Assembly (NCBI GenBank): GCA_019358945.1
Contig: JAHHIE010000002.1
Coordinates: forward strand, 1 to 64,000
Source: Stenomitos rutilans HA7619-LM2
GTDB taxonomy: Bacteria; Cyanobacteriota; Cyanobacteriia; Leptolyngbyales; Leptolyngbyaceae
DNA length: 64,000 nucleotides
Direction: 5' to 3'
Position 1 is the stretch's first letter. Every line of letters begins with the position of its first letter. A model generated the notes under the pieces. The model searched no databases, was not told where the DNA came from, and worked only from the letters and a program-made list of their open reading frames with translations. The position numbers and the translations under genes are program-made. Positions 7,418 through 23,292 of this stretch are shown here, one piece after another.

Positions 7418-8050
7418 ATGCCATCAAGCAACGTCTCCTCTACACACTTTCTAGCGCTACAGCAGCGGGTGATGCTTATCCATCAGCGGTTGTGTGTCAC
7501 GTATGGCTGCCCGATCGCCTACTTCCACAACCTCGATCCGCTCAGCGAACTGGTGTCATCCCTACTGTCTCACCGCACCCGTAATGCCGATTCGGGGCGT
7601 GCGTTTAAGGCACTTCGTCATCGGTATGCTGATTGGGCAGCCATGCGCAATGCGCCTGTGGAGGAGGTCGAGCAGACGATCGCCGCCTGTACCTGGGCAG
7701 AACAAAAAGCGCCCCGCATTCAGCAGGTGTTGAAGCTCATTGGCGAACAACGTGGCAACCTCTCCCTCGATTTTTTGGCAGATGTCCCAGTTCCTGAAGC
7801 GCGAGCCTGGTTAGAATCGCTGCCTGGAGTCGGTCCTAAAACCAGCGCGGCTGTGTTGTCATTCAGCCAACTGCGGCGACGTGCCTTACCTGTAGACAGC
7901 CACCATCACCGCGTTGCAATCCGTTTAGGGTTGCTGCCAACCACAACGGCTGTTGGCCCTGCTCATGCGTTGCTAGAAGCTCAGTTGCCAGCAGAATGGA
8001 ACGCTCAAGACGTATATGATAACCATGAAGTGATAATATTTCGATTATAG
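7418..8050 (+). pseudogene. nth: Endonuclease III family DNA glycosylase, interrupted at its 3' end
   Basis: A helix-hairpin-helix base-excision repair glycosylase/AP lyase. The HhH motif LPGVGPKTSAAVL carries the catalytic lysine, and PVDSHHHRVAIRLGL supplies the catalytic Asp. The protein runs normally to VYDNHEV, then changes to IIFRL and stops at 8050. Family members would continue with ~30 residues that usually hold the 4Fe-4S cysteines or an equivalent. The recombinase gene starts 17 bp on, so the big element integrated into nth and removed its tail. Excision would restore it. The 210-residue product may still fold but lacks the C-terminal part. Confidence 0.8.
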
Positions 8051-8062
8051 ACATATTATTAC
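8030..8062. other. Left attachment junction of the integrated element
   Basis: The nth reading frame breaks near 8030. The junction carries an imperfect inverted repeat, GTGATAATAT (8030-8039) and ATATTATTAC (8053-8062), one mismatch, around 13 AT-rich bases and directly before the recombinase start. Serine integrase sites are short imperfect palindromes of this kind. Exact crossover unknown without the right end. Confidence 0.5.
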
Positions 8063-8066
8063 CAGC

Positions 8067-9395
8067 ATGATATTGGGATACGCTCGCGAATCGACGCTTA
8101 AAGCGGAGCAAGATCAAGCTCTAGCTTGGCAAATACAGCGGCTACAGCGGTATGGCTGCGATCGCATCCTTACCGATCGTATGAGTGGAGCCAGCAAAAA
8201 GCGACCTGGCTACAAAGAACTACTAGCACTAATCGATTCAGACAACGTTACAGAGGTGGTCGTTTGCTCGGTTACCAGGCTAGGGCGATCAACTCGTCAA
8301 ATGGTAGATGCGATCGATCTCTTTGCTGAGAAGAAAGTTAAATTTACTTCACTTGACGGCAAAATTGACATTGACACAGCATCAGGCAGGGCAAACGTAC
8401 AGATGCAAGCTGTTTTTGCACAGCTAGAGCGCGAGTTAATCCAAGAAAGGATCAACGCGGGCTACGACGGCATCCGAGCAAATAGAATGCCGATTCACGC
8501 CCCCTTTGGCTACAGAATCATTGACAAGCGGTTAGAAATCGATGTAGACGTGGAAACCATTGCACGGTGGATACGGCAATCAGTCATTGATGTTGGCCTG
8601 ATCAAAACGACTCAAGCCATAAACCTCAATCACAAAGATTTGACTAAGATCCCACGATCGCCTGGCGGCATCAAGACCTGGCTGCAATGCGAGACTATCT
8701 ACGGCAACCTTTGGTACGACCGTCACAATCGACGGGGCAAAACAAAAATTTACTACAACAACCATCCTGCCCTTTTCACTCAGCAAGAGCGTTTAGAAGT
8801 TGAAGAGTCTTTAAGCTTTCGGCAAAAACATCATGGTTTCAAGTCTGATCCAGTGCGGTTTCCCTTAACTGGCTTAATCTATTGTGCTGAGTGTGGCAGC
8901 AGTATGTCTGTCTCCTATAAGCACGATCGGGTTAACCCCATAGTTTATTACCGTTGCTATAAAGGAGTGCGGCGATCGTGCCCTAACAATAAGTACATGA
9001 ATACTGACAACATTCAAAAAGCAATCATTATCGCTTTAGTAGACAGATCTGAAACCATTGCTGCACGAGCCATTCAAGCAGAACAAAAAGTAGCTGAAAA
9101 CCCTGGGCTTTTGGAGCTTAGAAAACAATTGATTGCTTTAGTAAAGCTGCCTACAAACTTTCATATCGAGGCCGCGATCGCAGGTATTCAATCCGATATA
9201 GCTGAAATCGAAGTTGCTGCGTCTAAACAAGAAATTACGCTACAGCCGGATAGAGAGAAAGCATTAAAAGCATGTTCTAATCCAACTTTCTGGATTGAGC
9301 TAAAACCAGAAGACAAGCATTCAATTTACCGACTACTTGTGAAGCGAGTGGTTTGCCGAAGGAACAGCATCGAAACTGTTGAGCTTTGGGTCTAG
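8067..9395 (+). CDS. Large serine recombinase (XisF/site-specific integrase type)
   Basis: 442 residues. The N-terminal resolvase domain starts MILGYARESTLKAEQDQAL with the catalytic Ser in the YARES position, followed by VCSVTRLGRSTRQM and the QLERELIQERI helix. A recombinase domain follows (GYRIIDKR... GNLWYDRHN), then a zinc-ribbon segment with CAEC (~residue 275) and a C-x8-C pair later, and a coiled-coil tail. The layout is that of fdxN-element XisF and related large serine recombinases, which excise or integrate DNA at genes. It sits at the left junction and reads away from it, as expected for the element's own integrase/excisionase. Confidence 0.85.
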   Translation: MILGYARESTLKAEQDQALAWQIQRLQRYGCDRILTDRMSGASKKRPGYKELLALIDSDNVTEVVVCSVTRLGRSTRQMVDAIDLFAEKKVKFTSLDGKIDIDTASGRANVQMQAVFAQLERELIQERINAGYDGIRANRMPIHAPFGYRIIDKRLEIDVDVETIARWIRQSVIDVGLIKTTQAINLNHKDLTKIPRSPGGIKTWLQCETIYGNLWYDRHNRRGKTKIYYNNHPALFTQQERLEVEESLSFRQKHHGFKSDPVRFPLTGLIYCAECGSSMSVSYKHDRVNPIVYYRCYKGVRRSCPNNKYMNTDNIQKAIIIALVDRSETIAARAIQAEQKVAENPGLLELRKQLIALVKLPTNFHIEAAIAGIQSDIAEIEVAASKQEITLQPDREKALKACSNPTFWIELKPEDKHSIYRLLVKRVVCRRNSIETVELWV

Positions 9396-9396
9396 A

Positions 9397-9555
9397 TTAA
9401 GCGGCTTTTCGCAAGGCTGTTTCCAAATAGGCTTTTAACTGCGGCTCAGCTTTGTGCCAGTCAGGATGACCAGCAACAATCTTAGCTATTTTTTCTAAAG
9501 CTTCTTGACGCTCGGTAAAAGCTTGAATGTTTTCGTTTAACAATTGCCAGGTCAT
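9397..9555 (-). CDS. Small helical protein, unknown
   Basis: 52 residues (MTWQLLNENIQAF...), amphipathic helix-rich, ending one base after the convergent recombinase gene. Its ATG overlaps the stop of the preceding gene as TAATG, so it is probably translated with it. Last gene of a leftward run that begins near 12 kb. Confidence 0.55.
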   Translation of the reverse strand: MTWQLLNENIQAFTERQEALEKIAKIVAGHPDWHKAEPQLKAYLETALRKAA

Positions 9556-9725
9556 TATTTTCCGTCCTTACAATTAATTGGCTTTGCCATCACTTTCAAA
9601 CACCCTTTGCATGTCACTGTTTGCGGATTGCTATTGCTGCTTATAGTGCTGCTGTGCCAGCGTCCACCTGCACGAAGGTCAGCTTTGCAGGGAATCCCGA
9701 TGTAATGGATGCGTTTCTTAGTCAT
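9555..9725 (-). CDS. Small Cys-pair protein, unknown
   Basis: 56 residues from ATG 9725. Contains VTCKGCLKVM, one CxxC pair, plus two more cysteines, so a small zinc knuckle is possible. The start overlaps the end of the 9718 gene. The cluster of short overlapping genes is typical of phage early regions. Function unknown. Confidence 0.5.
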   Translation of the reverse strand: MTKKRIHYIGIPCKADLRAGGRWHSSTISSNSNPQTVTCKGCLKVMAKPINCKDGK

Positions 9726-9990
9726 TGGTGCGATCGTCTTCCTTAAATTCAAAACCTAGCCAATCCAAATCTGTGCGTTCAATTGTCCAAATGAGGCTAC
9801 CTTCTACTGGCTTAAAACCCTTTTCATCAAACTCTTTGTTTAAGAGATCGAGGCTTGTTCTTTGCTGTAGGCCAAGAATAGAGATTGCCATTAACGGTGG
9901 TAGTGCTGGATAGTTGTAATGCTGCCAGTAGCGCACATAATAACTGTTAGCCAAAAGCCGTACAATGGTGGTGAACTCTTTTAATGTCAT
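9718..9990 (-). CDS. Unknown 90-residue protein
   Basis: No recognised family. Helical N-terminal half (FTTIVRLLANSYYVRYWQHY) and a C-terminal WTIERTDLDWLGFEFKEDD. Overlaps its neighbours by 4-8 bases in the leftward operon. Confidence 0.55.
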   Translation of the reverse strand: MTLKEFTTIVRLLANSYYVRYWQHYNYPALPPLMAISILGLQQRTSLDLLNKEFDEKGFKPVEGSLIWTIERTDLDWLGFEFKEDDRTND

Positions 9991-10244
9991 GTGCGATTGG
10001 TTCCATAAATGAACGCTCCAAGCTCATTGGTGTCATTGTCGTCACCGCCTGAGATTATTGGCTCGTCCCAAACAGGATCATCATCAAGGCGGACGCAGGT
10101 GATGACTTCGGCCAAATTCAGCAGGGCTTTAACTAACGACTGACCGTCAGCGCTAATAGAACTACCATTTGGAACATCGTTTTCAACGCGGAGAATGACC
10201 CTGCCATTTGCTTCCCATACTTGGAGCTTGATGTTTTTAATCAT
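9987..10244 (-). CDS. Unknown 85-residue acidic protein
   Basis: Start taken at ATG 10244 (MIKNIKLQVWEANGRV); further upstream would run deep into the previous gene. Beta-rich start followed by an acidic loop (RLDDDPVWDEP). Stop overlaps the next start as ATGA, next to an AATCGCAC sequence seen at several junctions here. Function unknown. Confidence 0.5.
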   Translation of the reverse strand: MIKNIKLQVWEANGRVILRVENDVPNGSSISADGQSLVKALLNLAEVITCVRLDDDPVWDEPIISGGDDNDTNELGAFIYGTNRT

Positions 10245-10575
10245 TGCGATCGCCCTCCATGCCTTCAAGCCGTTCAATCAAAGCAATCAGTCTGTTTTCG
10301 ACAGGGACCATTGTTTCTTTGACAATGGTTTCGATGACGTCAGAATGATCGACCTCAAAAACATCAGAGTCATCATCACAATCAGTGTCTTCTATCTCGC
10401 CGAACACAACTTCCCCAAGATTGTTTGTAGCTCGTTCTAAATCTTGCAGGCACTGGACAAAAGAAGAGATTGTGCTTGCGCTAGCGTTGGCTTCAACAAG
10501 GGGCGCTAGGCGCGATTGGATAAAGCTTTCTACTTCACAAATTAGGCTCAGAATCTTTTCGTTATCTCGGTTCAT
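10237..10575 (-). CDS. Unknown acidic helical protein
   Basis: 112 residues, strongly acidic centre (EDTDCDDDSDVFEVD), helical ends. No family recognised. Start overlaps a 31-codon frame that links it to the upstream gene. Confidence 0.5.
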   Translation of the reverse strand: MNRDNEKILSLICEVESFIQSRLAPLVEANASASTISSFVQCLQDLERATNNLGEVVFGEIEDTDCDDDSDVFEVDHSDVIETIVKETMVPVENRLIALIERLEGMEGDRND

Positions 10576-10657
10576 TCGCTTTCCTCAATTTCATCAATTG
10601 GTAAACCTGATTAAGAGCGGCATCGCTACCTGATGGCGATAAATTACTAACTGTCAT
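10562..10657 (-). CDS. 31-residue small protein, translationally coupled
   Basis: ATG at 10657 overlaps the TGA of the 131-residue gene as ATGA, and its own end overlaps the start of the next gene by 13 bases. Product MTVSNLSPSGSDAALNQVY... is helical at its end. Coupling at both ends is the main support. Confidence 0.45.
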   Translation of the reverse strand: MTVSNLSPSGSDAALNQVYQLMKLRKANEPR

Positions 10658-11049
10658 TGCAGTCGGTTTGCTTTCCAAGTGGCTCTTAACGCATTGGAAA
10701 GCTGCATATACCGTGAACCAACACGTGATGCAAAACTAGGCAAAACGTATAGACAAATCCGTGCAAGTTTGCGCCACGCTTCTTGCTGCGTCTCCGTTAA
10801 CGCCTGCCAATGGTAGAACCCTTCACCTAGTAACGTCTGCGGTTCAAGTTCAAGATAATCCCATTGCTCGGAATCGACTAGCCAAGGTACTGTGCTGATA
10901 CAACCTGAGCCTAGACGACTATTCTCGAATAGAACTCTTGCAAGCCACTCAATATCAGAGGCTTGTTGATTGCCTTTAAGCGACGCACCAAGGTTATGCA
11001 AAGTACAAGCAGCAGCGTCTAGTTCCAATGCTTCTTTAGAAAAATCCAC
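10654..11049 (-). CDS. Unknown 131-residue protein
   Basis: Helix-rich, with repeated WL/WR motifs (IEWLARVLFE, VPWLVDSEQWDYLEL, AWRKLARICLYVLPSF). No family recognised. One-base overlap with the upstream membrane-protein gene and ATGA overlap downstream. Confidence 0.55.
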   Translation of the reverse strand: MDFSKEALELDAAACTLHNLGASLKGNQQASDIEWLARVLFENSRLGSGCISTVPWLVDSEQWDYLELEPQTLLGEGFYHWQALTETQQEAWRKLARICLYVLPSFASRVGSRYMQLSNALRATWKANRLQ

Positions 11050-11261
11050 TAAAGATCGCTCTCCTTAATTTCATCAGGCGGGTGCGGTGGAAAAACATTT
11101 TCCCAGTCTTCTATCACTTTTGCTTCGTCAACGTACTGGCTCTGCTCTAATACTTCCAGCTCGTCAGGCTGGCGCGGAAAGCGTAACTGGCAAGCGGAGA
11201 TCGCTAGCACTGCGAGGGTTGAAAGAACGAAGCAGAGAGCAATGATCAGGCAAGGTGTCAT
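11049..11261 (-). CDS. Small single-pass membrane protein
   Basis: 70 residues. A hydrophobic N-terminal segment (LIIALCFVLSTLAVLAISAC) forms one transmembrane helix or an uncleaved signal; a Cys at its end could be a lipobox-like site, but the match is loose. Acidic C-terminus. Start overlaps the stop of the MazG-like gene as ATGA. Confidence 0.5.
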   Translation of the reverse strand: MTPCLIIALCFVLSTLAVLAISACQLRFPRQPDELEVLEQSQYVDEAKVIEDWENVFPPHPPDEIKESDL

Positions 11262-11599
11262 GTGCGATCGTCCTCTTCTTTCAGCGCTTCAATTGCTCCT
11301 GTAAAGTGGCAGTAAGGTTTCTCAGGCTCAGCGACTGGGCGCTCATGCTGCCACTCATGGTATTGATTCAATTTCCCGTCAACCCGCAGCCATATAGCTT
11401 TTTCGTCAAGGTCGTGCGTCTCAACGACAAAGAGAATGGCAGCCATCACATCAGCTGCTTCATCTTGAAGGCGTTGCAAGAGCGATCCTTTACCATCAGG
11501 ATGTTGATCTGTGTTGTAGTAAGCCGATTTTTTAGCAGCAATTTGAATGAGTTCGCCACACTCTTCCATCATTTTTGTTAAGCCATCTTGATGCATCAT
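11258..11599 (-). CDS. MazG-like nucleotide pyrophosphohydrolase
   Basis: 113 residues from ATG 11599, whose ATGA overlaps the stop of the upstream gene. The MazG signature is clear: MMEECGELIQ (E-x-x-E) followed ~30 residues later by DEAADVMAAI (E-x-x-D), the four Mg-binding acidic residues of the all-alpha NTP-PPase fold. Phage versions are thought to hydrolyse (d)NTPs or (p)ppGpp to favour replication. The C-terminal third has no known motif. Part of the leftward early operon. Confidence 0.7.
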   Translation of the reverse strand: MMHQDGLTKMMEECGELIQIAAKKSAYYNTDQHPDGKGSLLQRLQDEAADVMAAILFVVETHDLDEKAIWLRVDGKLNQYHEWQHERPVAEPEKPYCHFTGAIEALKEEDDRT

Positions 11600-11790
11600 G
11601 TGCGATCGCACTCCTGTTTTCTCATGGCATCAATCACTTCTTGAGCTTTGAAAAGCACTAGAACACCGTCATCACCAATATCAGCAAGGCATTGCCCGAC
11701 TGGAGCGCCTTTGCCGTTCCAAAGTTTTTTCCTGCCGGAATTCGTAAATGAGCCTTTGAGAACAAGGCTGATTTTTTGCATCTGCTCCAC
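11596..11790 (-). CDS. Unknown 64-residue protein, possible 5' frameshift
   Basis: Encodes KISLVLKGSF...GRKKLWNGKGAPVGQ. A better ribosome site (AAGGAG) and ATG lie at 11848 in another frame, whose product reads MTPEQLIQKCEHAINHG...GGADAK and meets this frame exactly at a run of six A (~11782-11787). One extra A would make a single 83-residue protein. As written, the start here is a GTG at 11790 or the nearby ATG at 11781. Confidence 0.45.
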   Translation of the reverse strand: MEQMQKISLVLKGSFTNSGRKKLWNGKGAPVGQCLADIGDDGVLVLFKAQEVIDAMRKQECDRT

Positions 11791-11860
11791 CTAGAATTCC
11801 ATGATTAATAGCGTGTTCGCATTTTTGAATTAATTGCTCTGGTGTCATTTGCCGCACTCC

Positions 11861-12076
11861 TTAAAACAGTAAATCATCATGTTTGTTGTGGCGGTTCTGC
11901 CACCAATGCTGCAAATAAAAACGACGACGCACTAACCATGAATGCAGAGTGTCAGCGTGGGGATGTGGACATCGATCGCAGTGCAGAACTGAGCCTCCAT
12001 AACGCCTTTTGTATGAGCGTAATTTGTGACCGAGAAAGAAGCATTTTAAGTAACCGATCCAGCCGTGAAAAGTCAT
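11861..12076 (-). CDS. DUF1660-like small zinc-binding phage protein
   Basis: 71 residues from ATG 12076 (MTFHGWIGYLKCFFLGHK). CFFLGH then HCDRCPHPH give the Cys/His spacing of DUF1660-type prophage proteins (C-x3-GH ... CxxC). Function unknown in the family. Confidence 0.45.
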   Translation of the reverse strand: MTFHGWIGYLKCFFLGHKLRSYKRRYGGSVLHCDRCPHPHADTLHSWLVRRRFYLQHWWQNRHNKHDDLLF

Positions 12077-12148
12077 AGTGATCTTGCTCCAAAACTGCTT
12101 GAATAATAATCTTTGGTCAGTTTTTCGGTTAGCTTGCACTTCAGATCC

Positions 12149-12925
12149 TCAGAATGGAAAATTATCAAACTGATAGTTTTTGATTAGCTCAAGCATTTGC
12201 TCACCTTCATTGAAATTTGACATTTCAACCGCCACCCGCACGGCATCAACTAACGACACACCCGAATGCACGATCGCTGCTTTCACCAACTCAGCAGGTT
12301 CTAAATGCTTGAGCAAACCTTGCAACTGAATCCGTGCCACCTGATCAACCTCTTCTGGCTCCCAACGGCTGCAAACGGGGCGTTCTTCGACTAAGCCATT
12401 TGCTTGCACGGGTCGGAGAGTTGGGTTTGCCTCGCCACACATTTCCCGCTTGGATTCTTCTGGCGTAATGGAAGGCGCACACACCTCAAGGCCCATTGAT
12501 GCCAACTTCGCTTCAACCTCAAGCGACACGGCGGTAGTGGTTGGGTCGGACATGTAAACCCGATCGCGCGGTACATCCGACGCCCGCTCCTCACCCCAAG
12601 TAATCCGCATCATGCCCTTGCCATTGGCAGCGATCGCCTGTCCTTCCACCACCCCACCGCCTGGATTGAACCAGACAGAAGTCGGATCAATGGGCTGATA
12701 CTCGTAAGGGTTGCTCCCCTGATTTTCGTCCTCTAAGCCCTCTGTTTTGGTGGGGATGATGCTAAGAAGATCGCTCGACTCGCTGAAAGATACAAATGCA
12801 AGCGCGATCGCTAACTGATGCAGCCTTGCTCTGATAACTTCCTCAGATGGCTCCCTAGTGCCCTCAGAAACATCTGAAGAGGTTTTGTGATGACAAGGCT
12901 GTTTATGTGGTTGCAATGTGTTCAT
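12149..12925 (-). CDS. Unknown 258-residue protein
   Basis: Low-complexity N-terminus, then a segment with SVWFNPGGGVVEGQ and RVYMSDPTTTAVSLE, and a helical C-terminal segment (QLQGLLKHLEPAELVKAA...). No family recognised. ATGA overlap with the upstream HNH gene. Confidence 0.5.
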   Translation of the reverse strand: MNTLQPHKQPCHHKTSSDVSEGTREPSEEVIRARLHQLAIALAFVSFSESSDLLSIIPTKTEGLEDENQGSNPYEYQPIDPTSVWFNPGGGVVEGQAIAANGKGMMRITWGEERASDVPRDRVYMSDPTTTAVSLEVEAKLASMGLEVCAPSITPEESKREMCGEANPTLRPVQANGLVEERPVCSRWEPEEVDQVARIQLQGLLKHLEPAELVKAAIVHSGVSLVDAVRVAVEMSNFNEGEQMLELIKNYQFDNFPF

Positions 12926-13413
12926 AGACTTTCCTGCTTAGCTTTTTTGCCGGAAACATATTCAGCCAAAGTCACTCCTTTTCTGTAGGCAATCCAAACA
13001 TCGGCAATGGTCAAATCTTCTAGGCGTGCAACAAACAAGCAATGGCGGATGCGCTCTAAAACAACCTGTTTTTCGGCTTGTTTTGCTTTGATCGCCTGCT
13101 TCAACCTGCCTCTAAGATCCTCGTAGTCTTCTTCAGACCAATGCGGCGAGTTAAGAAGTCGTCTATAGCGGACAGCAAGTCTCGTAGCCAAAAAATCGGC
13201 TCTTTCGGCTATGGAATAAAACGAATAAGAACTTAAGAGGCTGTTACACTCGCTACAGCAAGGGATAACCGTTTTTTCTGATCTCCATGCTTTAGCGTGT
13301 CGTTTTTGACCAGAAGCGTAAGCAAACGGAATGACATGATCAAAACAATTTGCGGTATGTCCGCAGTAAGAACATTCCGATACAAGCGCGCTGACTTCTA
13401 TAAAACCGCTCAT
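12922..13413 (-). CDS. HNH endonuclease
   Basis: 163 residues from ATG 13413. The HNH core is CSYCG near residue 13, then FDHVIPFAY (Asp-His), and IPCCSECNSLLSS with the Asn and second CxxC: a zinc-bound beta-beta-alpha-metal nuclease. Phages use such enzymes for DNA processing or as homing nucleases. The start sits directly against the operator repeats shared with the divergent ribbon-helix-helix gene, so it is probably controlled by it. Confidence 0.7.
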   Translation of the reverse strand: MSGFIEVSALVSECSYCGHTANCFDHVIPFAYASGQKRHAKAWRSEKTVIPCCSECNSLLSSYSFYSIAERADFLATRLAVRYRRLLNSPHWSEEDYEDLRGRLKQAIKAKQAEKQVVLERIRHCLFVARLEDLTIADVWIAYRKGVTLAEYVSGKKAKQESL

Positions 13414-13465
13414 TGTTGCTACGATATTGCTACACATACCTTTATTGTAGCAACGTTGTAGCAAC
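13414..13465. promoter_or_regulatory. Operator array: two inverted pairs of TTGCTAC boxes
   Basis: The 52 bp between two divergent starts hold TTGCTAC twice (13416-13422 and 13426-13432) and its inverse GTAGCAA twice (13447-13453 and 13458-13464), symmetric about ~13440. Spacing of 10-11 bp equals one helical turn, as for cooperative ribbon-helix-helix repressors such as the protein encoded at 13466. Confidence 0.6.
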
Positions 13466-13621
13466 ATGGTCAAAGAATTTATGCTCCGGGTTAGGCTGTC
13501 AGGTAGACAAAAGCGGCGATTGAAGTGGGCTGCAAGAGAACAGGATAAGGACATGTCTGAAGTGGTTAGAGAGCTTGTCAATCGATTGCCTGAACCGCCA
13601 GAAGACTGGCAAGAAGAATAG
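13466..13621 (+). CDS. Small ribbon-helix-helix repressor
   Basis: 51 residues: MVKEFMLRVRLSGRQKRRLK then WAAREQDKDMSEVVRELV. A beta strand with alternating residues (FMLRVRL), then two helices, is the Arc/MetJ/CopG pattern. Its ATG touches the last operator box, leaving no leader, so it is likely autoregulated. The 3' end overlaps the opposite gene at 13578. Confidence 0.65.
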   Translation: MVKEFMLRVRLSGRQKRRLKWAAREQDKDMSEVVRELVNRLPEPPEDWQEE

Positions 13622-14582
13622 CAAGGCGTTGGGCTGTGGTGGGATCATGCTCTACCTGATCAGATGCTTCTGTGGTAACGAACGAATGTTTTACCGCAAA
13701 TCCTTTCCATTCCTCCTGCCATCGCTTCCAGGCTGAGGCGCGATCGCGAAAAGCAAGGGGGAAAGGAGCACCCATATCGTCACGCTCGACGGCACACCCT
13801 TTCTTCCAGCGACGGACGGTACCAATCTGGGAGTAGAGGGTCATGAGTTGTTCTAGCGTGGGAGTCGCGTGATCGCCGATCGCGGCAAATTGAGTCTCGA
13901 TCGCTTCCGGTGAGAGTAGTGATGAGTTTTGAATACTCACTGATGAGTCTTGTACGTTTCGAGACTCATTTGGATGTTCAGCAGGCATAAGCGCCTTCTT
14001 GCTAATCGCTGCCAAAGCCTCAGTCAGCGTCAATTCCGTCATGCTGTCGGCTTGTGCTTCAAGTTGCTGTCGATGATGCCATAACCGGATCGCACGTTGC
14101 GCCTGTCGTTCAGTGATGCCCCGATCGCTCAACCAGGGTAGCCACCGACCGTAGCCACCAATTTCGGGTAAAGCTTTGGCCTCTAGAAGTTTTTCGCCTA
14201 AAGTTAGCGATCGCTGGAGTGCTGCTGTGCCAGCCTGCCGCATGGTGCTTTCGGCTTCTTCTGCCTCGGCCCAAATCGCCTCGATTTCAGTGGCAAGGCG
14301 ATCGACAAGGTTGTCAGACTCTGCGATTGTCAGCGCGTCTTCTACTTGGCTATCGTCGATCGCGGGTGCTTCCGGTGTGTCGATAATGGGTTCTGATTCT
14401 AGCTCTGGGGCGTCTCGTTCGACGGTGGCAGGGTTAAGGGCGATCGTCTTTTCACCCGTGCTGCATTTGATCCAATCATCGGTGGTGAAACCCTCAAAGG
14501 TACCCGTGTAAACATTTCCTTTGGCGGAAGTACCTGTGATGCGATCGCCCTTTTGCAGTAGCTGTTTAGTGGCTGTGGTCAT
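13578..14582 (-). CDS. DUF3102-like protein, putative DNA-binding
   Basis: 334 residues. Residues ~1-60 form a small beta domain (KGDRITGTSAKGNVYTGTF). An acidic linker follows, then ~110-200 reads SLTLGEKLLEAKALPEIGGYGRWLPWL then ITERQAQRAIRLW, close to the DUF3102 pattern of a helical domain with an HTH. The C-terminus has W-rich segments. Such proteins occur on phages and plasmids; role unknown, possibly replication or partition related. Confidence 0.5.
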   Translation of the reverse strand: MTTATKQLLQKGDRITGTSAKGNVYTGTFEGFTTDDWIKCSTGEKTIALNPATVERDAPELESEPIIDTPEAPAIDDSQVEDALTIAESDNLVDRLATEIEAIWAEAEEAESTMRQAGTAALQRSLTLGEKLLEAKALPEIGGYGRWLPWLSDRGITERQAQRAIRLWHHRQQLEAQADSMTELTLTEALAAISKKALMPAEHPNESRNVQDSSVSIQNSSLLSPEAIETQFAAIGDHATPTLEQLMTLYSQIGTVRRWKKGCAVERDDMGAPFPLAFRDRASAWKRWQEEWKGFAVKHSFVTTEASDQVEHDPTTAQRLAILLASLLAVQAID

Positions 14583-14627
14583 GGCTCAATTTCCGGTGTG
14601 AAGGGTAACTGAATGCGGGTCGGGTCT

Positions 14628-15374
14628 TTACCGTGACCCGTTGCTATGGGGGGAGAGTTCAATTGCGGCAGTCGGTTTCACTTGCTGAAAACTGACAACC
14701 CACACGTAAGGATTGCTAGCCCAGGGATATTTATCGGCATTAATGGAATTCCACAAGTCTTCATATGCAAGGCGTGAGCTAAGACACCAGCGCGACCAGT
14801 CCCAGCCGATATTGTCACCCCCTGGTAATCCGTCACGATCAGGGATGCCGTACTTCACGGTTTGCCCACCGTCCTTGGAGAGTGCTGCTAAACCTTCCGC
14901 GATCGCATCCTCTTCGCTGATGTCTTGGAGCCGTTGCACTCGCACGTTTGTAATTTCCAATAAGAGTCGCGAGGCTTTACGAGGCATATGGATCGACGGC
15001 TTCCAGCCCGCTGTGCTGCCATCGGGTTCTGGCATTGGCTTGTTGCAGCGATACTGTCGATCGGCTCGATAAGCAAAGCATTCATGCGTTTCAGACTTGG
15101 CTGGTCGCCAAGTCTCTCTCACCCAAAGGCGATCGCCAACCTTACCGTATGGGCATTGCATCGCACTAAAACAACCTGTGTTAGCCGCGATCGCAATTAA
15201 CTCGCCATCCTCAAGCTCAACATCTTTCCAGTTCTGAATCGCCCAGGATGGTAGCTTGGCTGCCCGTCTAGTCATCGTTTTCCGCCCTTCCAGAATGGCT
15301 TTTACCATTGCCCCAGAAAATAAAATCGGTCGTTCTCTTGCTGAGATCGTTGGTTCTAGCGTTGCGGTGCTCAT
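14628..15374 (-). CDS. ASCH-domain phage protein
   Basis: 248 residues. Pattern: FSGAMVKAILEGRKTMTRR, then PYGKVGDRLWVRETW, then HMPRKASRLLLEITNVRVQRLQ with ISEEDAIAEG, and a closing DLWNSIN...NPYVWVVSF. This is the phage ASCH-like family (PUA-related, proposed RNA or modified-base binding). Widespread in phage early regions; exact role unknown. Confidence 0.7.
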   Translation of the reverse strand: MSTATLEPTISARERPILFSGAMVKAILEGRKTMTRRAAKLPSWAIQNWKDVELEDGELIAIAANTGCFSAMQCPYGKVGDRLWVRETWRPAKSETHECFAYRADRQYRCNKPMPEPDGSTAGWKPSIHMPRKASRLLLEITNVRVQRLQDISEEDAIAEGLAALSKDGGQTVKYGIPDRDGLPGGDNIGWDWSRWCLSSRLAYEDLWNSINADKYPWASNPYVWVVSFQQVKPTAAIELSPHSNGSR

Positions 15375-15379
15375 GGCTT

Positions 15380-15583
15380 TTAACGGTTAAAAATGGGGTG
15401 TTTAATCCAGGCGAGGAAGCGGTGACATTGTTGGCAGCGCCAGTCTTCGATGCCGATCTGGGTGACGGAGGGGTAGCGATCGAGGCTTTTGCAAGCGGGG
15501 CATTGAGCGGGCGGTGGTTTAATGTCGGGAGCGGTTTTCTGGCGACGTGACTTTGGTGGGTCGGGAATAGCAAGCTGGGTCAC
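15380..15583 (-). CDS. Small zinc-ribbon protein
   Basis: 67 residues. CPAC (~28) and CQQC (~50) form a four-Cys zinc ribbon. Basic, proline-rich N-terminus. Overlaps the upstream gene by 4 bases. Function unknown. Confidence 0.55.
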   Translation of the reverse strand: MTQLAIPDPPKSRRQKTAPDIKPPPAQCPACKSLDRYPSVTQIGIEDWRCQQCHRFLAWIKHPIFNR

Positions 15584-15948
15584 AACGACTCCCTCACCCA
15601 GCGACCAGTAGCATCCAGCCAGCGGCGGCAGGTGGTATCGCTACCCACAAACTGCAAGCTGGTGATGCCTGTCGTGAACACAACCTGCCAGCACAACTCC
15701 TCTAGCTCTTGCCAGTAGGCAGGCTGGCAGATAGTAGCGGGACCTGGCTCGTACTGCACAATCAGGAACGGTTGCACGCCAGGGACGTAGGCAAAGCGAA
15801 GGTTAGCACTGCCCAAGGCAATCATGGTGCGGTGGGAAAGTTGGCAAAAGAGGTGCTCCAAGATGCTGCTGCGGAGACTGGGAGAGCTTACCAATTGCTG
15901 AGCGGTATGGCAGCGGAAGGCGCGGGATGAAAGGTCGATCGTGCTCAT
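15580..15948 (-). CDS. Unknown 122-residue protein
   Basis: Mixed alpha/beta composition (FAYVPGVQPFLIVQYEP, WRQ-like C-terminus RRWLDATGRWVRE). No family recognised. Coupled to the zinc-ribbon gene by ATGA overlap. Confidence 0.5.
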   Translation of the reverse strand: MSTIDLSSRAFRCHTAQQLVSSPSLRSSILEHLFCQLSHRTMIALGSANLRFAYVPGVQPFLIVQYEPGPATICQPAYWQELEELCWQVVFTTGITSLQFVGSDTTCRRWLDATGRWVRESL

Positions 15949-16044
15949 AGTTTTTGAATCAGGGGTTGGAAGTAACGGAGGATGACGAGTAGCGCGTCTG
16001 TGCGTTAACGGGGATGGGGTCTGTCGGCTTTGCCTTCGAGGTAG

Positions 16045-16239
16045 TCAACGTCTCGCCCTTGCGGCTCGTTTACTGGTGTTTTGTTTGGCAAACGCTTCCG
16101 CTGTTTCCACAACTTTGGTTAACTCCTGTACCACAATATTTTTGAGATTGTCGCGGTAGATGTTGCTCAATGCTGGACGTAAGCGCTTGAATAGATGCAC
16201 CAACTCGGTATAGCGATCCGGCTCTTGTTTTTGCTGCAT
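16045..16239 (-). CDS. Small basic helical protein
   Basis: 64 residues from ATG 16239, preceded by AGGGGG on its own strand. Helical, basic C-terminus (KRAARARR), suggesting nucleic-acid contact. Follows the polymerase gene by 7 bp. Function unknown. Confidence 0.5.
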   Translation of the reverse strand: MQQKQEPDRYTELVHLFKRLRPALSNIYRDNLKNIVVQELTKVVETAEAFAKQNTSKRAARARR

Positions 16240-16246
16240 ATGCCCC

Positions 16247-18250
16247 CTATTTGTCTGACCATGCTTTACAAACTTGCTTTTCCGGTGTGCTACCAAGGTC
16301 ATCCACTGGAATAGAAGTGATAAAAACTTTCATTGCTGCCTGCATCTCCACCAAGATCAGGCGAGAGACCGCGAGAGCATAAGCTTCGTCACAGACAGCA
16401 TCGAGTTCGTCGTGAGCGCAATTGCACAGGTACGCACCCCACTCTGGATGAGCATCAAACCCGTCAAGAATGCCTTTCATAGCCAGTTTGATCACATCCG
16501 CTTCAGTGCTTGTCCAGACAAAAGAACAGGCATCGGACAATTTGACAGAAGGTGGTGCAGATGGTTGAAAATCAGATTTAAATTTCCGCATGTGAATGCG
16601 TCGCCCTGACCAGCCATAGACAAGACTGTATGTGTCTTTTAATCCTGGCAAAGTGACACATACTTTATTAGCCTGGTCAACAATGTCTAGTTGATAACGG
16701 CGCAGTCCTGCGTAGGCAGTATCCCAAGCTTTCACTGCTAACTTGGCAACATCTTCAGAAAGGTCAATGCCAGCATCTGTCTTAGCTGTACGCTGTAATG
16801 TTGATGGCCCTGCACCATTCAACCGTCCGTAGAACACAGGTTTTGCTACCTGTCTTAACTGGTCTGCCCGTTGGCGATCGGGGGATGTCTTATCCTTACG
16901 AGTCTGCTTGATATACTCTGCTGACCAATCTAGCCCTTGTAGCTTTGCAAGCTTACTAGCTGTGACTGAGTGAAAGTCAGGATCATCACCACTGTTGTAA
17001 ATTTCCACCAATGTCTTATCACCACTTGCCTCCGCAGCAATCCGAGCATGGGCAGCAGACAAGTCAGAAATAATGAGTGCCTTACCTTCAGGCACTTTAA
17101 AGAACGAACGTACCTCAGGTAAGTTAAGTGCCTTGATCTCATCTGGCATGGAGATGGGATTAGGAGGGTTTTGCAAATTGACATTAGGAAATTGATCTTT
17201 AGCTTTGTCACCGCAAGTTGAACGCCCAAAGCCCGTTGGGCCTAACTGCCGAAAACTACCGCGTACAGAGCCATCAGAATAAGCGCGTTGACAACCCTTG
17301 ATGTAATCAATGTAGGTAGTCATCGTGCGCCACAGGCTCAAAGACTTCAGAGCGGGTTTGTCCCAATAGGGAGAAAGACCCCCCTGGTCTGTGCTCTCAA
17401 CTGTGATACCCAACGTCTTTTGAATGGCTTGTTTAACTTGCTTCGGGCTGTCAGGATTAACACCTGGAAATGTTTCATTGAATGGCTGCAGTAAAGCACC
17501 ACAAGCAGCTTCATATTGCTGTAAAACATCTCTGAGAGTTTCGATACAAACGGGAAAACCGTAATATTCCATTTGCACAAAGGCAGGGTTCGCACCACTT
17601 TCTGCTAGAGCAGGGCCACTCAGGTTGACATTGTCTAGCATCTTCCCCAGTTGCCTGAAGACATCGAGAACGACTAGAGAATCTTTTGCTGAATAATTAC
17701 GTTGCGCGTTTGTAAGCGCTCCACCAAAGTCAGATTTTTGCTCAGCCTTGTCCACCTCAATACCCAGCCGTGCACAGATTGCTTTGAGATTGTGACGGTA
17801 GGGTACTCCTGCCCAATACAACTGACTGAACAACATCACATCGCGGACACAACGCGTATCAAAGCCAAACTTAACTTTGACCCACAATTGATCAAACTTT
17901 AAGTTCTGCCCCACCACACGCACATCTGGGTCTCGCAACATCTGACCGAGTAAAGGTAAGAACCCTGTAGCATCCAGACGCTGGCGGCAAAGGTTGCAAT
18001 CATCCATAAACCCTCCCAAGTCCACCAACAGACTTAAGCCGTTGGTCAACCCAATGGAAATGAGTCTGATGTCGCCTCGCCAAGGGTCAAGGGCTGAACC
18101 ATTGCTAGCAAAGGTCTCAATGTCAAACCCAAACATTTTTGACTGTTGCCACTCGGTTAATGCGTCCGCCCAGCGCACATCTGAGGGTGTGACAATACAA
18201 GGATCTAAAGCAATTTCAGGTTCAAGCAAGAGAGCTGTTTGATAACTCAT
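16247..18250 (-). CDS. Phage-type family A DNA polymerase with 3'-5' exonuclease domain
   Basis: 667 residues. N-terminal DEDD exonuclease: FGFDIETFA (ExoI, ~residue 40), VGQNLKFDQLW (ExoII), and a Tyr/Asp region near YSAKDSLVV (ExoIII). Polymerase domain: motif A IISDLSAAHARIAAEASGD (~395) with Ala-His in place of the usual Ile-Glu after DxS, motif B RQVAKPVFYGRLNGAG (~465), motif C CNCAHDELDAVCDE (~610). There is no 5' nuclease domain, so it is a replicative phage/plasmid enzyme rather than chromosomal Pol I. ATGA overlap with the upstream primase/helicase gene indicates a replication operon. Confidence 0.9.
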   Translation of the reverse strand: MSYQTALLLEPEIALDPCIVTPSDVRWADALTEWQQSKMFGFDIETFASNGSALDPWRGDIRLISIGLTNGLSLLVDLGGFMDDCNLCRQRLDATGFLPLLGQMLRDPDVRVVGQNLKFDQLWVKVKFGFDTRCVRDVMLFSQLYWAGVPYRHNLKAICARLGIEVDKAEQKSDFGGALTNAQRNYSAKDSLVVLDVFRQLGKMLDNVNLSGPALAESGANPAFVQMEYYGFPVCIETLRDVLQQYEAACGALLQPFNETFPGVNPDSPKQVKQAIQKTLGITVESTDQGGLSPYWDKPALKSLSLWRTMTTYIDYIKGCQRAYSDGSVRGSFRQLGPTGFGRSTCGDKAKDQFPNVNLQNPPNPISMPDEIKALNLPEVRSFFKVPEGKALIISDLSAAHARIAAEASGDKTLVEIYNSGDDPDFHSVTASKLAKLQGLDWSAEYIKQTRKDKTSPDRQRADQLRQVAKPVFYGRLNGAGPSTLQRTAKTDAGIDLSEDVAKLAVKAWDTAYAGLRRYQLDIVDQANKVCVTLPGLKDTYSLVYGWSGRRIHMRKFKSDFQPSAPPSVKLSDACSFVWTSTEADVIKLAMKGILDGFDAHPEWGAYLCNCAHDELDAVCDEAYALAVSRLILVEMQAAMKVFITSIPVDDLGSTPEKQVCKAWSDK

Positions 18251-21168
18251 GGTGTCTCTCCTTGTTGTTGCAAGTAGTCGGAAAACAACATCAATTCACT
18301 CAATGGCACCCGTCGCGGAAACATATCTAGTTCCGCCTCTCCGTCCATCACACCCTTGATCCGCACCCCCTCGTTATTGACGCGCCTGAAATGCACCGGC
18401 GGGGTTAACCAAGCAACCAAATCACCCTTCTTCAAGGTAGGAACTGGCACAAGGGGGGGTGGCTTTGGTTGTGCTGCGTTTGTCACGTCTGTCACAACAT
18501 TTGTCACACCCTCTAACGCTTGCCCGGTATACTCTTGAGGTAGTTCTGTCACACTTTCAGAGATTTTTTTATTTTCTAAAACCTCTTCCACTTTGTTAAC
18601 TTCTGTAACGGTATCTGGAGGTTTTGAAAAATTTTGATTTTTTGTGACAAACAGGGTTTTTTCGTCTGTATTGCCTTCCCCTGTTGTGTTGTAAGGTGTG
18701 ACAAATTCGTCAAAAACCTGTGACAAATGTGACAAATCTACCTTTTCTGTGACAAACTTCCAGCGCAATGACTTTTTGTCACCGTGTGACAGTTCGCCTA
18801 AGCCAAGTTCAATAAGTTGCCTAATTTTGTCTCTTGCATCCTCAGCCGATTCGGCATAGCGTTTGCGAAGAATCTCCCGATCGCTGACTTCGCCAATGCG
18901 CTGGCTGAGTTCCACAATCTTGAGTAATTCGGGAGGGAGGTCAGTCTGAATTGTCTTGGCGTGTAGTAATTTGACCTGTTGGATGTAGTACTGACAGAGG
19001 TAGAGACTCCGTTGCATGGTTTTAGCGGGCACCCGGTCATCATCTGGGCATTCACCCAGGGCAATATCGAGGCAATGCAGCAGTAGTGCAATGCGGGCGG
19101 AGTAACCAATCATCTTGGCAAGGGCATTCTTAAAAGCGGCGGAACAGTACTCCCGTTGGTCTTCCACCCAGGACTCAAACTTGTAAAAGAGTTTTTGCGC
19201 TTCTGGAGAAAGTCGAAACATGCGGTCTGACGCTAAGTGGTCAAGCTTTGTGTAAACGTCCTCTAGTAGTGCACTGATGTCTGTAGGAGTGCTGCGATGG
19301 TCAGCCCTGATGTAGGGTGGATTGCTCCAAAGGATACGACCCCACATGCCATCACTATCTTCTTTGTTACCCATCTGTTGTTCCAGGACAGAGGTTTGGA
19401 TGGCTCCAGACAAAGAGACTGCCGACTTGGGTACAAAGACACTGGCATTCTCAGTCTTGCGGTCTGTCTTCAGGTCGCCGCCATTCCACAAGCGCAACAA
19501 CTTTTTACGGTCATTGCCTTTGCCACCAGACTTGTACTGGTCTAGTCCATCAAACAATTCTGCTAACTCGTCGTAGAGCAAGCTAAACCCAGTGGCTGAT
19601 TCCTCTTGAGCGTGCAAAGCAATAGCAGCATCAAGAGTAGTGTCTTCCAGGTAGTAGTGCCGCTGATTCGGTTGTTTGGGTACCTCAGAAGCGTCAGCTT
19701 CTGCGCGTTCCTCCCTCTTCTTACCGTCCCACTGCCGTTTGTTGATCTCATACTCTTCTTTACGAGCTTCAAACTCTTCACGGGCTTGCACCTGCAACTT
19801 CACCAAGGGTTTACGAATCACCTTCATGGCAGGCGATTTCTTAAACCCTGGTTCACCCACAAAGCCTGTCCACAAAACGCAAGGTTCTGTCCACCCTTGA
19901 TGCACTCGAATATCAGCACGGGTACCGACAATGCCAGCACACACCGCCATAAACACTTGGTGCAAACATTCGGGGGCAATGGGTAAGGCTAAAGCCTGTT
20001 GTGTGAGAGCATCAGCCAGGTAATTTGGGTAGACCTTGTGAAGATCCAGCCGATCCTTTGAGTAATAAGCCAGTTCCTGTAACAACTCTTTTTGGTTGTT
20101 CAGTGATTCAGCAGCATCGTCATCCGGCAATTCCAGGACAGACCGTTGCTGACTACGAGTGACAGCCTCTTTATAGAGTCGCCAAGCATACCCTTTGATG
20201 CAACCCTCGATCGCGTCGGGAGGGAGAGAGGTGGAGCGACTTTTTTGACTCGCGGAACGCCAGATTGTTTCTCTTTCTGCTGCCTCAATCGTTGGATGAC
20301 AGCAATCGCAGTATGCCTCAAACATTGACCGAGGGTCGTCGTCAAACCGTTGTCCAAGTGCTTGCAGATAATTGGCGGTACCAATGAGGTTTGCTGCTAA
20401 CGCAAACCCTCGGTCATTCCGTACACCCTCACCTACACCCCGCGCAATCAGGCTGCGGTTCTCATGACTAAGGCACAACTCTAACGGTATGCTCTCAGCC
20501 AGCGGTACTGTACAACGTTCTTCAAACGTGTGCCAGCGCATTGAAATTTGCGTATCCGTGCTGTCAAGCTGTATCTGTGGTACAGCTTGCCTGAGCATGT
20601 CATAGCTGTAATCACTGTTGCTCTGACTGACAATCTGCACTTGTCCTGCTTCTGGGTGCCAGCAGCCAGCTAGACGCATCACCCGACTGGGGTTCTTAAG
20701 TTTGCGATCGGCGTTCGCATACTCCAATAGGTCTGTTTGTAAAACCTTCCAGGCCTCTGGGTAACAGGGTTCTTCCAATAGCCAGAAAGAGTAAACTGAC
20801 CGATTGCTAGTATCAACTTGGATGGTTGGCTCAGGTAACTGTAAAGATTGCCACAGTACCTTACTAGCCTCCCGCTCCAGATCATCGTGTTCGTAGAAGA
20901 CAGCACGACCACTCTTAATCTCGTCGTCTTTATGACCGCCGCCATTCACCACAAAATAGATACTCTTACCTTCAGCCTGGTAAGCCTCTAAGGCAGACCA
21001 ATCCAAGTCAGGCATGATTTCACTACGGTTAATCCCTTTCTCCAGTTTGTTCTTAGAAAACAAGCGCAGAAACACAAAATCTCCGTCTTGGTACCCCAGT
21101 GATCTCAGATGGGCGATTGCTTGCCCCTTGTCAATGGGACAGTTTGTTGCGACGCTTTGGTTAGCCAT
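18247..21168 (-). CDS. DUF3987-containing primase/helicase-type replication protein
   Basis: 973 residues. The N-terminal ~220 residues resemble a RepB/archaeo-eukaryotic primase fold (IYFVVNGGGHKDDEI, AVFYEHDD, PSRVMRLAGCWH). A middle PriCT-like segment includes CHPTIEAAERETIWRSASQ. Residues ~390-760 match DUF3987: LEDTTLDAAIALHAQEES, LYDELAELFDGLDQYKSGG, LWNGGDLKTDRKTE and SGAIQTSVLEQQMG. The C-terminus is a long linker plus a small beta domain (KKGDLVAWLTPPVHFRRV). Probably the initiator/primase of the element, working with the adjacent polymerase. Confidence 0.75.
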   Translation of the reverse strand: MANQSVATNCPIDKGQAIAHLRSLGYQDGDFVFLRLFSKNKLEKGINRSEIMPDLDWSALEAYQAEGKSIYFVVNGGGHKDDEIKSGRAVFYEHDDLEREASKVLWQSLQLPEPTIQVDTSNRSVYSFWLLEEPCYPEAWKVLQTDLLEYANADRKLKNPSRVMRLAGCWHPEAGQVQIVSQSNSDYSYDMLRQAVPQIQLDSTDTQISMRWHTFEERCTVPLAESIPLELCLSHENRSLIARGVGEGVRNDRGFALAANLIGTANYLQALGQRFDDDPRSMFEAYCDCCHPTIEAAERETIWRSASQKSRSTSLPPDAIEGCIKGYAWRLYKEAVTRSQQRSVLELPDDDAAESLNNQKELLQELAYYSKDRLDLHKVYPNYLADALTQQALALPIAPECLHQVFMAVCAGIVGTRADIRVHQGWTEPCVLWTGFVGEPGFKKSPAMKVIRKPLVKLQVQAREEFEARKEEYEINKRQWDGKKREERAEADASEVPKQPNQRHYYLEDTTLDAAIALHAQEESATGFSLLYDELAELFDGLDQYKSGGKGNDRKKLLRLWNGGDLKTDRKTENASVFVPKSAVSLSGAIQTSVLEQQMGNKEDSDGMWGRILWSNPPYIRADHRSTPTDISALLEDVYTKLDHLASDRMFRLSPEAQKLFYKFESWVEDQREYCSAAFKNALAKMIGYSARIALLLHCLDIALGECPDDDRVPAKTMQRSLYLCQYYIQQVKLLHAKTIQTDLPPELLKIVELSQRIGEVSDREILRKRYAESAEDARDKIRQLIELGLGELSHGDKKSLRWKFVTEKVDLSHLSQVFDEFVTPYNTTGEGNTDEKTLFVTKNQNFSKPPDTVTEVNKVEEVLENKKISESVTELPQEYTGQALEGVTNVVTDVTNAAQPKPPPLVPVPTLKKGDLVAWLTPPVHFRRVNNEGVRIKGVMDGEAELDMFPRRVPLSELMLFSDYLQQQGETP

Positions 21169-21267
21169 TTTCAGGTATCTATGCGTGGGGAATGGTTAGG
21201 AGCGGATCGAGAGGTGAGACTCTCGACCGCTCCGTTAAATAGAATTAAGAGGGTCTAGGGAAGTGAT

Positions 21268-22002
21268 TCAGAAAGGTATGGCATCTTTTGCTGCTTCTGT
21301 AATCTTTTCTACCTGCTCTTTTGCAGCTTCTACAGAGCCAAAAAGTGTGGCAATCTTCTCCAGACGGCGCGGCTTCAGAATCCACTCTCGTGCCTCATCA
21401 AACTCGTCTACGTGAGCAGCCTTGTTCAACATGGTTTGGAAGGTGTCCCAGTCCGGATGGCCTGGTGCTGACGCAGGTGCAGGGGTACCATCATCAAACG
21501 GGTTGTCGCCAGTCAGTAGAGCCTCAAGGTTGATAGCAGCTTCCTTGTAAGCTGTGATGGTGTCTTTGGCAGCAGGTTTAGCGGGTGATGGCTGTACGGT
21601 GTACTTTGTGTCCATACCATTACCAGAACGGCTAATTGTGATGTCGTAACCGTTGGGATGCCCCCACTCGTCATTGTCGTAAAAAGCTTCTAGCTGATCC
21701 TGGACAGAGACTTGTGTAATCTCCCAGATCGCAAGTTGCTCTTTGGCATAGTCCCAGACGACCATCGCCCAGAAGTATTTGATGCTCTCTGGCTTGCCAG
21801 TCTTGTCGCTCAGGCGAATATCGGTTGGGTTGCCAGGATGCTCCATGGAGCGGACGGGTTTGTTCTGGTTATTCCAGTACACATAGCCAACTGTGGCATC
21901 CGAAAGAATGCGTACTTTGTTCTTGCCGTCCTGAGGACGGAAGTAGTTGCCACCACCAGAGGTGCGGACGGGGCGAGATTCAACAGCGGGTAAAAAGCCC
22001 AT
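21268..22002 (-). CDS. Probable phage single-stranded DNA-binding protein
   Basis: 244 residues. KNKVRILSDATVGYVYWN, then IKYFWAMVVWDYAKEQLAIWEITQ, has the layout of phage ssDNA-binding proteins of the gp32-like type: a short basic start, a beta-rich core and a C-terminal acidic helical part. It precedes the primase and polymerase genes in the same direction. Assignment rests on general pattern and context. Confidence 0.4.
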   Translation of the reverse strand: MGFLPAVESRPVRTSGGGNYFRPQDGKNKVRILSDATVGYVYWNNQNKPVRSMEHPGNPTDIRLSDKTGKPESIKYFWAMVVWDYAKEQLAIWEITQVSVQDQLEAFYDNDEWGHPNGYDITISRSGNGMDTKYTVQPSPAKPAAKDTITAYKEAAINLEALLTGDNPFDDGTPAPASAPGHPDWDTFQTMLNKAAHVDEFDEAREWILKPRRLEKIATLFGSVEAAKEQVEKITEAAKDAIPF

Positions 22003-22165
22003 ATGAGGTTCCTGTTGTGAGTGTTGTGAGTAGAACGTTGCCCGTAGGCGATGTCGTTGTACGGCAGGTTTAAGGTTTCAGCCGCTTCAACCTGGATGAG
22101 AAGAGAAAAGGGCGATGGCTAAGTCGCCCATTCGTCGCAAAACGAACACTGCAAAACTTGATTAA

Positions 22166-22564
22166 CTAAAACGGGGACTCGTCTTCCCCCCAACTTTCCC
22201 GAAAGCACCAGCGCTTGCTCTGGAACTCTGGATGCTGACGTACAGCCTGCATCACTTCCAAAAAACCTGGTGCATTGGTGACGAGATTCACAAGAGCATC
22301 CTCGTCTTCCCATTCGTTTTCCATGAGGATCATTAAGCGCTCGATTTGATCGACAGGTCGATCGAGATGAATCGCTGTGATGTAAAACGTCTGCGGGGTT
22401 GTCTTCTCTGGTACGCGCTGCGTCTCGATCACTTGCTGCGCTGCCACCTGTCGGTAAACTCGTAGCGCCTCGTCCGCACGTTGGGCTACGGCTAAAGATT
22501 GGAGTGCCTCGGTTTGTGGGGATGGCGCGATCGGCTCTTGAGTCGTCGTTGCTGCTGTTATCAT
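22166..22564 (-). CDS. Unknown helical protein, first gene of the leftward early operon
   Basis: 132 residues, mostly helical (LAVAQRADEALRVYRQVAAQQV), acidic C-terminal part. No family recognised. First gene leftward from the regulatory region at 22565-22743. Confidence 0.5.
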   Translation of the reverse strand: MITAATTTQEPIAPSPQTEALQSLAVAQRADEALRVYRQVAAQQVIETQRVPEKTTPQTFYITAIHLDRPVDQIERLMILMENEWEDEDALVNLVTNAPGFLEVMQAVRQHPEFQSKRWCFRESWGEDESPF

Positions 22565-23265: not shown

Positions 23266-23292
23266 CCTGTTTGTGACCCAGCGATCGCCTAG

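Follow-up and report, generated by a model that had tools for sequence, protein, structure and literature searches.

A probable temperate phage with a large serine integrase in an endonuclease III-like gene of Stenomitos rutilans HA7619-LM2

An endonuclease III-like gene of Stenomitos rutilans HA7619-LM2 breaks off near its 3′-end, directly upstream of a gene for a serine recombinase. What interrupts this gene, where is its missing end, and does the interruption serve as a switch or merely mark the place where a phage came to rest? To answer these questions, we analysed a window comprising bases 1-64000 of contig C70 (343,696 bp), a 64,000-nucleotide stretch of a genome of 7.28 Mb in 119 contigs, and followed the element beyond the window along the same contig. 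The features are compiled in Table 1.

Table 1. Features at the interrupted locus; positions are those of contig C70, with which the window numbering coincides.
Feature	Position	Strand	Basis or remark
nthX 5′-part, DrEndoIII-1-like glycosylase, shared core included	7418..8034	+	ORF, Pfam, relatives' alignment
attL core CATGAAGTGAT, 11 bp	8024..8034	+	repeated at contig 110225 (attP) and 212426 (attR)
Prophage, left part	8024..64000		unit 8024-110224 of contig (102,201 bp), identical second copy to 212425
Imperfect inverted repeat, phage arm between core and integrase	8030..8062		shuffle test; related arrangement in the arm of the Lyngbya prophage (G006)
XisF-like large serine recombinase, presumed integrase, 442 aa	8067..9395	+	Pfam, NCBIfam
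Phage family-A DNA polymerase	16247..18250	-	PF00476, PF01612, phrog_17
Phage helicase/primase-like protein (DUF3987)	18247..21168	-	PF13148, phrog_36873, phrog_2373
Dam-type DNA adenine methylase	26790..27344	-	PF05869, E=7.8e-12
BRO-N (antirepressor-like) protein	56418..57335	-	PF02498, E=1.9e-7

The broken gene and its missing end

The truncated open reading frame (7418-8050, plus strand), termed nthX here, reads VYDNHEVIIFRL at its end. After VYDNHEV it gains five foreign codons, followed by a stop at 8050. In uninterrupted relatives, DNHEV continues into (M/L)MLHGQ(R/K)CC and a four-cysteine motif. A preliminary description of this DNA had proposed that a serine-recombinase element splits an endonuclease III-like gene near its 3′-end, and had suggested a search for the orphan 3′-part past 64 kb. 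Both the break and the recombinase are present as described, and a genome search with the C-terminal part of a congener protein located the orphan 3′-part at C70:212423-212530, on the same strand and 86% identical to the query. Moreover, joining the host flanks at the core in silico yielded an uninterrupted, in-frame protein of 244 residues ending DNHEVMMLHGQRCCYYQNPACDRCSILDLCTFGQARLNHGNAAD, which regains the 4Fe-4S cysteine motif C-x6-C-x2-C-x5-C, in line with the expectation that excision gives the gene its C-terminus back. Both halves of nthX are undamaged.

Which enzyme does nthX encode? On the canonical nth model TIGR01083 (cut-off 211.7 bits) the intact congener reached 68.9 bits and the window ORF 60.3 bits. 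The best-scoring model for the intact congener was NF053634, specific for the monofunctional glycosylase DR2438, and the closest solved chain was that of Deinococcus EndoIII-1 (PDB 4unf, E=2.1e-41). The likeness to DrEndoIII-1 of Deinococcus radiodurans (DR2438) thus comprises the closest solved structure and a cluster motif in both proteins, whereas the score on the DR2438 model (159.3 bits versus a cut-off of 400) sets them apart, and glycosylase activity of nthX is a prediction. By these scores nthX is to be classed as a divergent EndoIII paralogue of the DrEndoIII-1-like kind, with DR2438 as its nearest kin rather than as a fellow member by cut-off.

A canonical nth gene is intact on contig C18 of the same genome and passes TIGR01083 with 257.5 bits; base-excision repair as such is therefore not switched off by the interruption. 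Hence, the proposal that the element ties DNA repair to its own state holds insofar as an EndoIII-like gene is split, but this gene is a divergent paralogue. The preliminary description had also held that a second intact nth, together with the lack of any 3′-remnant, would speak against an interrupted gene. A second copy is indeed present, but the remnant is present too, and the interpretation is not refuted on this count.

As stated in the accessible part of PMC9268735, DrEndoIII1 shows lower activity on common substrates and mostly monofunctional glycosylase action. According to the same text, related enzymes became unstable when cluster cysteines were replaced, and MutY devoid of the cluster was inactive, although one cysteine mutant of DrEndoIII2 retained comparable activity (PMC9268735). 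Given these mixed results with related enzymes, we infer, rather than observe, that the break abolishes nthX function. In the integrated state nthX would give a protein of 210 residues that lacks the last 39 native residues, and with them all four cysteines of the 4Fe-4S loop; this truncated protein would probably be inactive.

The element between the two halves

Within the 224 kb examined, the 11-bp core occurs at 8024, 110225 and 212426 only, and thereby delimits two tandem intervals of 102,201 bp each, which are identical at every position. The outer junctions of the element (8024 and 212426) read as attL and attR, respectively. At the middle junction (110225) the phage end is joined to the phage start, and this junction consequently reads as attP. 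The integrase gene begins 32 bp past the core, so that a short identical core lies at both borders with attP beside int.

The exact tandem could be a true double lysogen, an integrated form and a circular form that the assembler wrote out in series, or an artefact. Since the double lysogen and the coexistence of integrated and circular forms alike require it, attP existed in the culture under either reading. The tandem suggests that reads supported the junction between phage end and phage start; such reads would stem from a genuine double lysogen or from phage DNA that was circular or replicating in the culture.

The preliminary description had located the break at an imperfect palindrome. The palindrome is real but moderate, with 16-nt arms (8030-8045 and 8047-8062) that are 81% complementary, and it is not the breakpoint: it belongs to the phage-side arm, and the sequence shared by the borders is the core at 8024-8034. 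Arms of this length were matched by 1 of 300 dinucleotide shuffles of positions 8020-8070 and by 4 of 300 shuffles of a 70-bp attP stretch. The 10-nt arms originally quoted were reached in 17/300 shuffles (38/300 for the longer stretch), and since so many shuffles do as well, this shorter palindrome alone is weak. The inverted repeat is probably an integrase-binding or regulatory site. The attP words of the two phages treated below had no match in viral_contigs.

The recombinase shows the domain order of large serine recombinases, a Resolvase domain (PF00239, E=6.9e-33) followed by Zn_ribbon_recom (PF13408, E=5.2e-12). It had been called XisF-type; XisF-like is the appropriate term, as it attains 315.1 bits on the XisF equivalog model NF041201 and thus stays under the cut-off of 375. 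In a set of 50,697 phage records, the serine recombinase of Nodularia phage vB_NpeS-2AV2 comes closest to it (26.8%). At E<=1e-60, the integrase was found among 388 class genomes only in the source genome and in G006, the Lyngbya described below. At E<=1e-20 it was detected in 7 of 58 relatives, the next by E-value after G006 being 30% identical. In addition, a 138-residue piece elsewhere in the source genome is 39% identical to the integrase.

The element contains virion and packaging genes: beyond the window it encodes a terminase large subunit, a portal protein with further head domains, a major head protein and a head protease. Within the window, the DNA polymerase, helicase, methylase and BRO-N genes listed in Table 1 are accompanied by a DnaJ-domain protein and an AlbA_2 protein. 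Among the ORFs scanned, which were part of the total, no tail or lysis family was detected, and this was counted against a proven completeness of the phage; among the other late proteins, the largest three yielded matches to families of unknown function in two cases and no family match in the third. All ORF counts given here refer to mechanical ORFs of at least 50 aa, not to curated genes, and part of them were taken to family searches. The GC content of the element (0.495, about 0.506 in the flanks) resembles that of the host and hence gives no sign of a recent arrival. On the strength of its gene content, we take the 102,201-bp element to be a prophage; as head and packaging genes were found in this element and in that of the Lyngbya, a satellite or plasmid reading was dropped.

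The region 33813-61775 also holds cargo-like genes, encoding an MFS transporter (35754-37331), an IS605-type transposase (41825-43144) and an EAL-domain protein (59617-60369). Two viral_contigs carry a terminase 61% identical to that of the prophage, one of them being IMGVR_UViG_3300037420_002493 (L236; 74,054 bp).

Taken together, the three junctions, the head and packaging genes and the in-frame gene obtained on joining the flanks, all read from the sequence, make it very probable that the feature is the attL end of a temperate phage of the ordinary kind, whose serine integrase used an attB site in nthX. The large serine integrase would have recombined attP, just upstream of int, with attB in the conserved YDNHEVMMLHG codons. 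Excision would restore nthX exactly and would probably be ordinary prophage induction that needs a directionality factor.

A second carrier and nthX among relatives

In Lyngbya sp. HA4199-MV5 (G006), nthX is split at the same codon, with its halves 72.6 kb apart on one strand, and they also join in frame in silico. The interrupting element is a 72.6-kb prophage with its own terminase, portal and head protein and an integrase 84-85% identical to that of S. rutilans. Only 24 of its 106 mechanical ORFs match the S. rutilans prophage; the terminases of the two do not match, and the similarity between their portal and head proteins does not exceed 31%. The border word common to the Lyngbya junctions is shorter (GAAAT). 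The integrase ORFs are full length in both carriers.

Next to the Lyngbya attL (contig C89, ~134,000-135,000; L068), about 1 kb is inserted between attL and the full integrase. The insert holds a 279-aa ORF, 35% identical to an ORF at contig 92845-93699 of the S. rutilans prophage; ahead of this 279-aa ORF lies a second, truncated integrase start. A terminase search (1/42 genomes at E<=1e-40) had led to the view that the Lyngbya element lacks a terminase, which was wrong, as a different terminase is present. Likewise, IMGVR_UViG_3300034630_000009 was rejected as an independent phage because 12,440 bp of it match the Lyngbya element with 100% identity; the accessible part of PMC8354539 gives 3300034630 as the IMG number of the same Lyngbya culture and reports that the sister genome was assembled with metaSPAdes from 2x150-bp reads.

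Among the 42 genomes of the family, nthX is whole in 18, interrupted in 2 and reduced to remnants in 3, and the remaining 19 hold only paralogues or nothing (absent at E<=1e-10). With 22 of the 42 genomes lacking nthX or retaining it only in decayed form, its loss is evidently tolerated. Across 386 genomes spread over the phylum, a close copy (E<1e-100) was present in 3 besides the source genome. The best 80 loci of 364 relatives comprise 78 intact copies, one broken copy (that of the Lyngbya) and one cut by a contig end, and the YDNHEVMMLHG peptide or a close form of it was recovered in 78 of these 80 orthologous loci. The use of conserved codons as attB would fit a phage in need of a dependable target.

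Relatives of nthX with 62-84% identity (loci L082-L161) occur in Microvirga, Skermanella, Methylobacterium, Roseomonas, Noviherbaspirillum, Archangium, Armatimonadota and Gemmatimonadota as well as in cyanobacteria; this scatter over phyla suggests horizontal transfer.

The orphan C-terminal fragment in G019 (L202, C1 ~703,500) was rejected as a third relic at the same core, as it results from an insertion sequence: a transposase-sized ORF adjoins the fragment, the ends are matching and inverted, and gene-like sequence continues beyond the segment. This insertion sequence inserted near the phage core position and is followed by the nthX 3′-part. The remnant in G001 has decayed through an internal deletion and two TGA codons. 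Its deletion ends near the core, but a single substitution within the host codons explains this equally well, and it was not counted as a phage case. In G021 the 5′-part is lost and one TGA codon is present; this remnant (L071, C138, ~7,000-7,180) has the sequence NHEVIMMLHG, in which a single additional codon falls precisely where the phage core would lie.

Alternative readings and comparison with known systems

Does the phage still leave the gene? In a plain, one-way insertional loss, the phage would no longer excise and nthX would be dead and heading for decay, as the remnants and absences in the family would permit. The truncated second integrase start and the ~1 kb between attL and integrase in the Lyngbya likewise agree with such a fate. 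Yet the integrase ORFs of both carriers are full length, neither half of the gene shows damage, and the tandem suggests that an attP was formed, for which reasons we regard one-way loss as unlikely.

The opposite case is a regulated switch, or active lysogeny, in which non-lytic excision under DNA damage, desiccation or a change in growth phase would turn nthX on and integration would turn it off. The precise in-frame rebuilding of the host gene in silico in both carriers and the circular form possibly implied by the tandem speak for it, as do two precedents, one involving a large serine recombinase (PMC4191935) and the other a DNA-repair gene (PMC3430984), as far as the accessible parts of these papers describe them. 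In-frame restoration is, however, expected of any precise integrase, the canonical nth is intact, and the loss of nthX is tolerated. This reading therefore appears quite improbable to us, although the element has the potential for a switch like that of SPbeta in spsM or SpyCI at mutL.

Is the insertion as old as the two carriers' common ancestor? The source genome and the Lyngbya pair in the nthX tree (0.986) and in the canonical nth tree (0.980), and also in unrooted trees of the rpoC1 locus (seven genomes of the genus; 1.000) and of a concatenation of six (1.000). A third small gene tree, with weak support, does not pair them. Between the carriers, the integrase (dN 0.096, dS 1.02) has diverged like nthX (dN 0.100, dS 0.93) and within the range of 19 host pairs (median dS 0.79, quartiles 0.64-1.08). 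Host pairs with fewer than 100 aligned codons were left out, and the median takes in all 19 kept, among them one false pairing (29% identity, saturated dS) and two unusually low dS values (0.16 and 0.19). The dN/dS of nthX is near 0.1, its short 3′-part being slightly less constrained (0.158/0.70). For other genes common to both prophages, dS runs from 0.13 to saturation.

As integrase and host diverged in step, these data leave room for a single old insertion, in which virion genes were exchanged later; the intact frames and the dN/dS near 0.1 would then imply recurrent excision that kept nthX alive. The pairing of the carriers, the agreement of the integrase values with those of nthX, the restriction of the integrase to 2 of 388 class genomes and the intact nthX frames fit this history. 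The small overlap in gene content, the unmatched terminases, the dissimilar portal and head proteins, the uneven dS of the other common genes and the one discordant tree argue against it. Moreover, long-lived prophages are unusual. We consider a single old insertion improbable, and the same holds for its fuller form, in which the integrase end has resided in nthX since before the split of the sister species, virion genes were swapped, and nthX was held under purifying selection by recurrent, regulated and reversible excision. If this were true, cyanobacteria would possess, beyond the heterocyst systems already known, a DNA-glycosylase switch under the control of lysogeny. It is simpler to assume that related phages arrived separately and that the gene is intact because the insertion is recent.

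Finally, that nthX is an anti-phage glycosylase disarmed by a phage that chose it as attB is hardly credible: Brig1, as reported in the accessible part of PMC11078745, is a DNA glycosylase with a role in anti-phage defence, and nthX relatives are spread over several phyla, but nthX is of the EndoIII/HhH-GPD kind and Brig1 of another superfamily, no base-modification gene apart from the Dam-type methylase occurs among the part of the ORFs scanned, and a role in host defence was rejected because the sole PADLOC match is a weak one to a nicking-endonuclease model (E=3.7e-8).

On the reading as an ordinary temperate phage, a gene break seen from one side becomes a completely delimited and testable integration system, in which attL, attR, attP and the predicted empty site are all defined. 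Should the phage excise, the state of a DNA-glycosylase gene would depend on lysogeny, which raises the question whether mutation, UV survival or desiccation survival is altered in carriers. Sister species in which the same codon is occupied by two largely different phages, their integrases being related, provide a natural test of whether insertions persist or recur. In addition, an integrase with defined sites may, in our judgement, serve as a genetic tool for a group of organisms in which, to our knowledge, few such tools exist.

How does the element compare with known systems? By its head genes, integrase and att sites, it would belong with the temperate phages carrying large serine integrases. 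The nearest terminases among the 50,697 phage records, ~30% identical, are those of Cylindrospermopsis phages (Cr-LKS4, RM-2018a) and Nodularia phages (including vB_NpeS-2AV2), whose genomes of 101-147 kb are of similar size. vB_NpeS-2AV2 also has a serine recombinase. The low identities (27% for the recombinase) separate the element from these phages.

In open-access literature, the matches listed included no endonuclease III gene that carries a prophage or an interruption element, most subscription papers lying outside this scope; on the basis of this search, the kind of element is well known, and this site and phage pair appear undescribed.

The original suggestion of heterocyst-type programmed excision was not borne out, as the element encodes phage head and packaging functions, which mark it as a prophage, and the analysis revealed no sign of programming. 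Elements of the fdxN/XisF type, reported also from three non-heterocystous strains, one of them in recQ (PMC4874684, accessible part), likewise lie within genes and have direct repeats at their borders and a serine recombinase near one border; they differ in that the prophage has a head and packaging gene set and a recombinase under the XisF cut-off. The gene table of this source does not contain nth, and its main text uses neither 'endonuclease' nor 'glycosylase'. Since its recombinase scores below the XisF cut-off and the element would be a regulated switch only on an improbable reading, we did not file the element under the programmed cyanobacterial excision elements.

Closer parallels come from two other bacteria. 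SPbeta resides in spsM of Bacillus subtilis and, as the accessible part of PMC4191935 describes, shares with the present element a prophage position in a host gene, a large serine recombinase and a precise excision that rebuilds the gene in frame; there, excision is developmental and the accessory protein SprB is known, and host, gene and phage are unrelated to ours as far as tested. SpyCI of Streptococcus pyogenes is a phage-like element whose integration likewise disables a DNA-repair gene, but it affects transcription from a position at the 5′-end of mutL (PMC3430984, accessible part), whereas here the 3′-end of a paralogue is cut. Excision and the mutator phenotype have been measured for SpyCI, and the developmental excision of SPbeta is established, whereas excision in S. 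rutilans is a prediction.
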